DNA of 64,000 nucleotides from Aureliella helgolandensis (GTDB lineage: Bacteria; Planctomycetota; Planctomycetia; Pirellulales; Pirellulaceae). Made by a program: the position numbers and the translations under genes. The stretch is from positions 868,001 through 932,000 of the forward strand of contig NZ_CP036298.1 of assembly GCF_007752135.1 (NCBI RefSeq), in the 5' to 3' direction. Positions 18,884 to 44,553 of the stretch are shown one piece after another (positions within the stretch are counted from its first letter, which is position 1; each line of letters opens with the position of its first letter). The notes under the pieces are model-generated. The model ran no database searches. It saw only the letters and a list, made by a program, of their open reading frames with translations, and had not been told where the DNA came from.

Positions 18884-21217
18884 ATGAATGCAAAACTAGT
18901 GCTTTGTCAAAGTTTAATCTTAGGGTTGCCCTGGAAAAGGTGTCCGACACCAAAAGCCGGAACGGCCCTACGGGGGCTTCGCACTTTTGGTGTCGGACAC
19001 CTTTTCCCACTCCGCCGGGCTGTTTGTGCGGTCCTGTTTGCCGTTCTCGTGTCCTGCGGAGGGTGGGGGGCGGTGCCAGCGAGTTGGGGGGCGGAGTTGA
19101 GTCCTATAGGAGCGACTGCGCCCAACGTAGTCTTTATTCTAGCTGATGACTTGGGGTGGCGCGATCTTTCCTGCTACGGGAGCCCACTCTGCGAAACGCC
19201 CCATATCGACGCACTTGCCGCTACTGGAATGCGTTTCACCAATGCCTACAGTGCCGCATCGATTTGCTCTCCGACGCGCGCTAGTTTGATGACTGGCAAG
19301 CATCCGGTGCGAACCGGGGTCACCGACTATATTCCCGGGCTGAAATCAAAGCCGGAACAAATGCGGACACCCCGCACGGCACGGCAACTGGCTTTGGAGG
19401 AAGTGACCTTAGGAGAAATGTTCCAACAAGCTGGTTATGAAACGATGTACGCCGGGAAATGGCATTTAGGAGGGGTCGGTTACGAGCCGCCCGACCAGGG
19501 CTTTGACGTGTATGTTGGGGACCGGCAGCTCGGCCCCCATGGACGCGATTGGACGGTTGGAACGCGAATCACCGCCGCCTTTGATGAATTTGTGACGGCA
19601 CGTCAGGCCGCTGAAGCGTCGGCCCCATTCTTGGCTTATCTGTCCTTTCATGAACCCCACATTCCCATCTTGGAATATCCCGAACATATCAATCACTTTC
19701 AGCAGAAAGTCGCAGGCTTGGGAGAATCGCCGGCACCACGTGCCGAACGCGAGGGCCGAACGCGAATGCGGCAGGATGATGCCGCCTATGGTAGTGAGGT
19801 CGCAGGGCTGGATGATCTGGTGGGCCAAGTCGTGGCGACGCTAGATCACGCTGGACTCCGCGAAGAGACCTTGATCGTTTTCTATTCGGACAACGGTGGG
19901 CTGTCGACCAAGTCGCAGCCGGGACCCACAAGCAATCTGCCGCTACGGGCGGGCAAGGGGTGGTTGTACGAAGGTGGGCTACGCGTACCGTTGCTCGTGT
20001 CACTGCCAGGGAAGATCGAACCTGCGTCGGTGTCTGATCAGTTGACGGTAAGCTACGATCTGGTGCCAACCCTGCTCGATCTGGTGGGGGCCGAAGTGTC
20101 GGTGAACAATGCGTTGCCACCGCAAGCTCTGGATGGCCGTAGTTTACAGCCTATCCTGCTAGGCGATGTGGAATCGCTGCCGGCAAGGGCCGAGTATTGG
20201 CACTACCCACACTATCACGGTTCAACCTGGGCCCCCGGTGCAGCCATGCGCGACGGTGATTGGAAGTTAATTCAGTTCGACCACTACGGGCAGGTTGAAC
20301 TCTACAATCTGGCCGAGGATCCCAGCGAAACGAAGGACTTGGCCGCGGAGCACCCCGAGCGGGTGGCAGACATGCAGCAACGCTTAGCAGCCTGGCAAGC
20401 TTCGGTAGGGGCCCGCTTTGCTCAACCGAAAAATCTAGCTGTCGAGGAGCTCGTGGCTTGGTGCATCGTCCCCTTCGATGCAAGTCGCCGTGGACCCGAG
20501 GCACGTGCACAAATGTTGCAGGAGTTGGGCCTGCGGAAGCTTGCCTACGACTGGCGCGAAGAGCACGTGGCGACTTGGGATGCAGAAATTGACGCGTTGG
20601 CTGCGCACGACATCGAGCTGACAGCTTTTTGGTGCTCCAGTTCGCTCTCGCCAGGACAAGATCCTGGTACGCAACGCATCCTCGATTTTCTGCGTCGGCG
20701 ACAAGTGACCACTCAATTGTGGGTCATGCTGCCCGATCATGAATTGTCAAAAATTGATGATGAGGCTGAGCGTGTGCAGCGGGCGGCATTGGCACTCCGG
20801 CAGTATGCGGAGCTCGCGGGAGAGATTGGATGTCAGGTTGGGCTCTACAATCACGGTGGATGGATTGGACGCCCGGAAATAATGGTCCGAGTGATGCGGG
20901 AGTTGAGTGATCTCGACAATTTGGGAATTGTCTACAATCTGCACCATGCCCATGGTGAATTGGATCAGTTTCCTACTGCACTGCGAGCCATGCTCCCCTA
21001 CCTAATGTGTGTCAATTTGAATGGGACCACCGTCGGAGGCGAAAAAATTGTGACACTTGGGGAGGGGACTCTGGATGCCGAAATTCTGGGTTGGTTGCGC
21101 CAAGTACAGTACTCAGGGCCCATTGGCATTCTCGATCACCGAGGTCAATTGGATGCCAAGGAGAGTTTGGAAATGAATTTGACCGGTCTCAGGGCGTTGA
21201 TTGGCCCAGTCGAGTAG
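18884..21217 (+). CDS. Sulfatase fused to a TIM-barrel sugar isomerase/epimerase-like domain
   Basis: 777 residues. Residues of about 75-510 form a type I sulfatase: APNVVFILADDLGWRDL, then ICSPTRASLMTGKHPVRTG with Cys128 the formylglycine site, AGKWHLGG, FYSDNGG, and GRSLQPIL/WHYPHYHG near its end. From about 522 to 777 a second domain reads WCIVPFDASRRGPEARA, LRKLAYDWREEHV, LYNHGGWIGRP, IVYNLHHAHGE and GPIGILDHRGQ. This is the xylose-isomerase-like TIM barrel (PF01261) normally encoded as a separate planctomycete protein. The product could desulfate a sugar and act on it further, but that is inference. The leader is odd: a perfect inverted repeat (18933-19007) is translated inside it, ahead of a hydrophobic stretch with a lipobox-like LVSC. 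The true start could lie elsewhere. Confidence 0.87.
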   Translation: MNAKLVLCQSLILGLPWKRCPTPKAGTALRGLRTFGVGHLFPLRRAVCAVLFAVLVSCGGWGAVPASWGAELSPIGATAPNVVFILADDLGWRDLSCYGSPLCETPHIDALAATGMRFTNAYSAASICSPTRASLMTGKHPVRTGVTDYIPGLKSKPEQMRTPRTARQLALEEVTLGEMFQQAGYETMYAGKWHLGGVGYEPPDQGFDVYVGDRQLGPHGRDWTVGTRITAAFDEFVTARQAAEASAPFLAYLSFHEPHIPILEYPEHINHFQQKVAGLGESPAPRAEREGRTRMRQDDAAYGSEVAGLDDLVGQVVATLDHAGLREETLIVFYSDNGGLSTKSQPGPTSNLPLRAGKGWLYEGGLRVPLLVSLPGKIEPASVSDQLTVSYDLVPTLLDLVGAEVSVNNALPPQALDGRSLQPILLGDVESLPARAEYWHYPHYHGSTWAPGAAMRDGDWKLIQFDHYGQVELYNLAEDPSETKDLAAEHPERVADMQQRLAAWQASVGARFAQPKNLAVEELVAWCIVPFDASRRGPEARAQMLQELGLRKLAYDWREEHVATWDAEIDALAAHDIELTAFWCSSSLSPGQDPGTQRILDFLRRRQVTTQLWVMLPDHELSKIDDEAERVQRAALALRQYAELAGEIGCQVGLYNHGGWIGRPEIMVRVMRELSDLDNLGIVYNLHHAHGELDQFPTALRAMLPYLMCVNLNGTTVGGEKIVTLGEGTLDAEILGWLRQVQYSGPIGILDHRGQLDAKESLEMNLTGLRALIGPVE
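18933..19007. repeat. 75-bp palindromic element, perfect 24-bp arms, inside a coding region
   Basis: The left arm 18933-18956 and right arm 18984-19007 are exact reverse complements over 24 bp, around a 27-bp centre. Each arm holds the smaller palindrome GGTGTCCGACACC. The element spans exactly 75 bp, or 25 codons, so it keeps the reading frame of the fused sulfatase. It encodes roughly residues 17-42 of the leader region. It looks like a REP/MITE-type unit inserted into the gene start. I recall similar GGTGTCGGACACC palindromes in planctomycete genomes, but cannot check here. Confidence 0.8.
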
Positions 21218-44465: not shown

Positions 44466-44553
44466 ACGTACAAAACTAATCTCGCCGAGTGAGGGTACCC
44501 AGCGATTGGAAAAGGGTCGTGCGGGATCTGATGGCACGATTAGTTTTGTACGT
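44466..44553. repeat. 88-bp element with perfect 16-bp terminal inverted repeats
   Basis: ACGTACAAAACTAATC at 44466-44481 is the exact reverse complement of GATTAGTTTTGTACGT at 44538-44553, with 56 bp between. The arms are AT-rich against the GC-rich surroundings. It could be a small MITE-like insertion or a folded regulatory element. No transposase is nearby. Confidence 0.7.

Follow-up and report, generated by a model that had tools for sequence, protein, structure and literature searches.

A probable truncated MITE-like element with a REPIN-like hairpin, presumably read in frame in the leader of a planctomycete sulfatase gene

In-frame palindromic insertions, MITEs, REPINs and REP-targeting insertion sequences (ISs) are all kinds of element that are already known from bacteria. 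Bacterial MITEs, including RUP, NEMIS, Nezha, ERIC and others, are short, non-coding, dispersed sequences with terminal inverted repeats and a short target duplication (PMC3733652, PMC10969869). The element that we describe here resembles them in being short and non-coding, with terminal inverted repeats and dispersed copies, but it carries a REP-like doublet at its centre, this centre differs between species, and no parent transposon was found. Like the REPINs of Pseudomonas, it contains two inverted REP-like sequences with a spacer, a hairpin and compensatory changes (PMC3116915). In Pseudomonas, however, conservation is lower in the spacer than in the REPs (PMC3116915), whereas here the linker, which served as the bait, is common between species and the arms differ; in addition, a terminal-repeat shell surrounds the doublet, and a general link to RAYT genes is not supported. 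Rickettsia palindromic elements are likewise palindromic, about 150 bp long and in frame inside genes (PMC10969869), but they occur in genes many times, while we found one clear case among 30 copies, in a leader. Finally, all copies of ISRm22, a member of the IS4 family, lie in REP palindromes, and some of them have imperfect duplications, which were attributed to recombination (PMC1525189). A 1.53-kb IS in our genome similarly has all its copies at a REP palindrome, although its duplication is 11 bp, compared to 6 bp in ISRm22 (PMC1525189), and spans the palindrome.

The window, the whole 64-kb stretch of DNA that was analysed, belongs to a genome of 8.44 Mb (G000) that forms a single contig. 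On its plus strand it carries a sulfatase ORF of 777 aa (18884-21217), which matches PF00884 and SGSH_C and ends in a C-terminal TIM barrel of the AP_endonuc_2 type. In frame within this ORF lies an inverted repeat, whose left and right REP-like hairpin arms (18933-18956 and 18984-19007, plus strand, by arm search) are 24 nt each, 100% complementary and 27 nt apart. Each arm contains the 13-nt palindrome GGTGTCSGACACC (18939-18951 and 18989-19001), and a 29-nt linker, a relative of a planctomycete-wide linker, overlaps each arm by one base (18956-18984, plus strand). A sequence-only reading of this locus had described mismatch-free 24-bp arms, a 13-bp palindrome in each of them and a 75-bp in-frame element. 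We reproduced the arms and their palindromes, and the frame holds within the 777-aa ORF, but the 75-bp boundaries do not, the unit being larger and lacking its right end. Exact 14-nt inverted pairs within 100 nt occur at two places in the 64 kb and in none of 20 mononucleotide shuffles of the window, and the leader repeat is not a product of chance. Folded as DNA, the 75 nt reach z -9.6 on the plus strand and z -11.1 on the minus strand, and in arms, pairing and fold the repeat has the make-up of a REPIN, that is, two inverted REPs forming a hairpin. The other place, at 44466-44553, holds a second exact inverted repeat in which the 14-nt seeds extend to 16 nt with 56 nt between the arms; it is possibly another small repeat element. 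Rfam at gathering thresholds gave no match in the window, and a tRNA search returned no genes.

A genome-wide search for further copies, which the sequence-only reading had proposed, showed that the repeat is not single-copy. With the 75 nt as query, the core was recovered at no fewer than 33 places, each with ≥82% identity over at least 66 of 75 nt, alongside weaker and incomplete matches; this number is a lower bound, as 40 of 67 candidates were scored, and it includes two matches separated by a single IS copy. The inverted repeat is mobile-derived and forms the core of a MITE-like family of about 155 bp, rather than an element of 75 bp. Members of the family have terminal repeats TAGTGCWTTGTCAA at CTAG, inside which two inverted REP-like palindromes surround the 29-nt linker. 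Comparison of 30 loci with their flanks revealed that most copies extend outward to TAGTGCATTGTCAA and its reverse complement; recognisable terminal repeats were absent from L041, L042 and L043, and one repeat was missing in some others. Among 40 loci scanned we found 21 two-ended elements of 102-172 bp, or about 1.7 kb where an IS had entered; they have the terminal inverted repeats and the short non-coding build that define a MITE. All 21 are immediately preceded on the left by C, and 18 are immediately followed on the right by G. In 20 of the 21 each end closes with TA, TA being part of the search motif, and for a target-site duplication read from these C/TA/G ends TA is indistinguishable from CTAG. 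In two copies, L070 and L099, a single central palindrome replaces the doublet. By inspection, neither GTAG nor CGTC is present at the palindrome end in the consensus arms of this genome, and GTAG is present in the centres of the shells in three other genomes (G013, G023 and G058). Outside any MITE context, one locus (L071, G000:C1:5902734-5904759) carries five single palindrome copies with A and T runs, among which two pairs have a spacing of 60 nt.

The copy in the window is a remnant of such an element of about 155 bp (18897-19011, plus strand), with an exact left end and a right limit placed by eye at 19008-19012, where its likeness to copies L034 and L070 stops. Comparison of flanks identified TAGTGCTTTGTCAA, at a CTAG, as the left terminal repeat (18897-18910, corresponding to C1:886897-886910, plus strand), while no right terminal repeat with up to three mismatches was found in 19008-19300; the copy has kept its left repeat and lost about 40 bp on the right. 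From the position of the left repeat, the point at which the likeness stops and the absence of the right repeat, we take MNAK to be the host part to the left of the element and LRRAVCAVLFAVLVSC the one to its right. MNAK (18884-18895, plus strand) includes the ATG; the other in-frame starts that precede the hydrophobic segment belong to the element. Because the inserted unit exceeds 75 bp and lacks its right end, 75 bp is not the size of the insertion, and the 25 added codons claimed earlier give way to about 114 nt, or 38 codons, between the two host parts.

We consider it likely, with a probability of roughly 0.8, that a MITE-like element with a REPIN-like hairpin inserted at CTAG in the leader of a secreted sulfatase, was truncated on the right and is read through in frame. 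The dispersed family, its terminal repeats, the retained left repeat and missing right end, the intact frame and the shorter leaders of orthologues are direct observations; the exact insertion junction, judged with orthologues at only 65-69% identity, is not proved.

The arrangement of start codons bears on how the gene would be translated. An in-frame stop (TAG) lies 15 nt upstream of the ATG at 18884, which is preceded by an AGGCGG-like ribosome site, as judged by inspection. Further in-frame starts are GTG at 18899 and TTG at 18926, both inside the element, and the next, at 19049, already belongs to the codons of VCAVLFAVLVSC, which is the hydrophobic part of the original signal peptide (19022-19057, plus strand, from hydropathy). 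As there is no start between the element and the hydrophobic segment, any exported product includes element-encoded residues. A downstream translation start, one of the options raised by the sequence-only reading, is nearly excluded for an exported product, given the lack of any in-frame start between 18926 and 19049; its placement of the repeat between the ATG and the hydrophobic part of the leader agrees with our data, with the host codons MNAK before and the hydrophobic segment after. The comparison with orthologues that it had called for showed that four same-genus proteins, at 65-69% identity, have shorter leaders without the inserted residues. The leader comprises 79 residues, or 41 minus the insert, compared to 28-35 in these orthologues, lengths for which the BLAST alignments start after the leader, G005 begins at a contig end and G011 is counted from the Met closest to the hydrophobic segment (about 50 residues result from a Met further upstream). 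The hydrophobic segment is intact and, by hydropathy alone, the n-region measures 46 residues versus 2-13 in the four orthologue leaders, counted with the same provisos for G005 and G011.

We propose that a non-autonomous terminal-repeat element with a REPIN-like hairpin would have inserted at CTAG just past the fourth sulfatase codon, probably mobilised in trans by a DDE-type transposase that recognises the terminal repeat, and would have lost its right 40 bp or so after insertion. Since the remaining sequence is in frame and stop-free, translation would start at the gene's own ATG, cross the element and continue into the original signal peptide, resulting in a leader about 38 residues longer. 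The intact hydrophobic segment suggests that export would still work, whereas expression may be reduced, or might even be blocked, by a hairpin that the mRNA forms soon after the start. This hairpin, predicted to be very stable (z -6.0) and situated about 50 nt after the ATG, and the unusually long n-region also fit a silencing of the gene by the insertion, leaving a pseudogene whose open frame is a matter of luck. We regard this as unlikely, as the 777-aa frame is intact, the sulfatase domains are present and a ribosome site lies ahead of the ATG.

Elsewhere in the genome, a frame of at least 100 aa runs across the core in 9 of the 30 copies examined. Pfam searches of the four longest frames matched the sulfatase and the metallophosphoesterase at L043 (G000:C1:3765274) and gave no match for L042 and L048; at L043 the core is in frame but 5' of the likelier metallophosphoesterase start (MLKPLRR...), which is signal-peptide-like. 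As L042 and L048 lack a Pfam match and the L043 core precedes the likelier start, the window copy alone is clearly an in-frame capture inside a conserved protein. The recurrent in-frame insertion into unrelated genes that marks Rickettsia palindromic elements was not found among these copies.

With regard to what moves the element, its terminal ends point to a DDE transposase that acts in trans, presumably as in the families that target TA. A transposase with these ends was not found in the two families searched, PF13358 and PF07592. An IS630-type parent (PF13358) was rejected because the domain is absent from this genome, and an ISAzo13-type parent (PF07592) because its loci are without the ends. 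We also rejected a 1.37-kb pair of ends in G030 as the parent transposon, as it encloses a glycosyltransferase-like gene and no transposase. Alternatively, the core could be a REPIN moved alone by a RAYT (a Y1 HUH transposase), with incidental terminal repeats. The inverted orientation of the REP doublet is consistent with this, as is a Y1 (RAYT-like) gene near C1:5957567 (L078:1153-1908), whose stop lies 16 nt ahead of a perfect palindrome of 29 bp that shares its centre with the element. In contrast, copies with traceable ends run out to the terminal repeats, and a tested arm (within 1.5 kb, at most one mismatch) was present at one of seven Y1 loci in this genome and at one of 30 retrieved loci (of 70 matches) in ten other genomes. 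The latter, L307 of G005, has a different arm, which is not among the arms seen as cargo in G005. In these sets of loci, a RAYT with the cargo arm of its genome was not generally found; a general RAYT link is not supported, and we find it improbable that a RAYT alone accounts for the core.

In the wider planctomycetes, the linker pattern was matched in at least 120 stretches of public genome contigs, against a chance expectation of about 0.002 matches at equal base frequencies, and the 80 linker loci taken up came from 17 assemblies, all of them planctomycetes. Because the pattern fixed 24 of 26 letters, the constancy of the linker is partly built in; the arms were not fixed. Beside the linker the arms vary by species (AAAAGGTGCCAGGCACC, AAAGGGGTCAGGAGTCAATT, AAAAGGGGTCAGACACC and others). 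In 77 distinct elements, drawn from 72 of 82 linker matches (a contig end cut an arm in the other ten) and 23 copies from our genome with duplicates removed, 93% of arm pairs are standard pairs and both-sided change occurs at 21 of 24 arm positions, while sliding one arm by 1-3 lowers pairing to 41-55%. Among 16 representative arm types 83% pair, whereas randomly assigned right arms paired at 61% on average and at 71% at most (500 shuffles). Species-specific arms still pair around a common linker.

The palindromes are also targets of the 1.53-kb IS, which encodes a DDE transposase (PF01609), is present in 12 copies in G000:C1 (loci L331-L354) and is tentatively labelled IS4-like from its PF01609 match. 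The left ends of all 12 copies adjoin a palindrome, GTGTCSGACAC in ten and a one-base variant in two. An exact 11-bp duplication is present at nine, and the three copies without it look recombined or mutated. In other planctomycetes, the IS-end letters GTGCCATTC adjoin the local REP arm at L212 and L252, which suggests that related ISs may target different arms. The single central palindrome of L070 and L099 and the 11-bp duplication made by the local IS would fit an origin of the doublet from a 39-bp mini-insertion that entered a single palindrome and duplicated 11 bp of it, but in other species the arms beside the linker are not palindromic and are inverted rather than direct repeats, and since a target duplication cannot give inverted arms this account is ruled out as a general rule and is very improbable overall, although it could apply in this genome alone.

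The terminal-repeat shell was sought with the pattern CTAGTGCWTTGTCMA, which occurs in 13 of 60 genomes, compared to 2 of 60 for the same pattern backwards; in 12 of the 13, all but G002, at least one place was inspected for a shell. Ten genomes (G000, G005, G007, G013, G023, G037, G039, G044, G055 and G058) have two-ended elements of less than 230 bp, and no shell was seen at the places inspected in G011. About 17 nt inside the terminal repeat are alike among G000, G005 and G013, though they lie outside the search pattern, and in six comparisons of these arms 0 to 297 of 20000 shuffles did as well. Exact inner arms extend to at most 26 nt in our genome, 20 nt in G005 and G013, 24 nt in G044, 15 nt in G058 and 16 nt in G037; in G007, G023 and G055 they extend to just 5-8 nt, and a hairpin is therefore not firmly shown there. 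G039 contains an empty 53-bp shell. With one element compared per genome, the centres of G000 and G005 share linker sequence (12 nt exact), and other pairs of non-empty centres have at most 10 nt in common. A similar shell hence encloses different centres in nine of ten genomes and is empty in the tenth. A plasmid search with a 31-nt shell consensus returned three records, at E 7. A word search of the accessible portions of the open-licence literature yielded no description of a shell with exchangeable REP cargo, or of the planctomycete linker.

We tentatively raise the possibility of a 'casing and cargo' element of this order, in which a shell of TAGTGCWTTGTCMA and about 17 nt ending near GGGTT would have its centre repeatedly refilled with different REP hairpins, the linker staying constant and the arms changing together. 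If so, a terminal-repeat transposase and a REP system would be two means of mobility combined in one element, and stranded copies could turn into protein sequence. A signal peptide that has taken up a mobile palindrome in frame offers a natural test of the limits of leader lengthening. In addition, the common linker with covarying arms and the similar shell with changing centres would allow us to ask how REP specificity switches between species.
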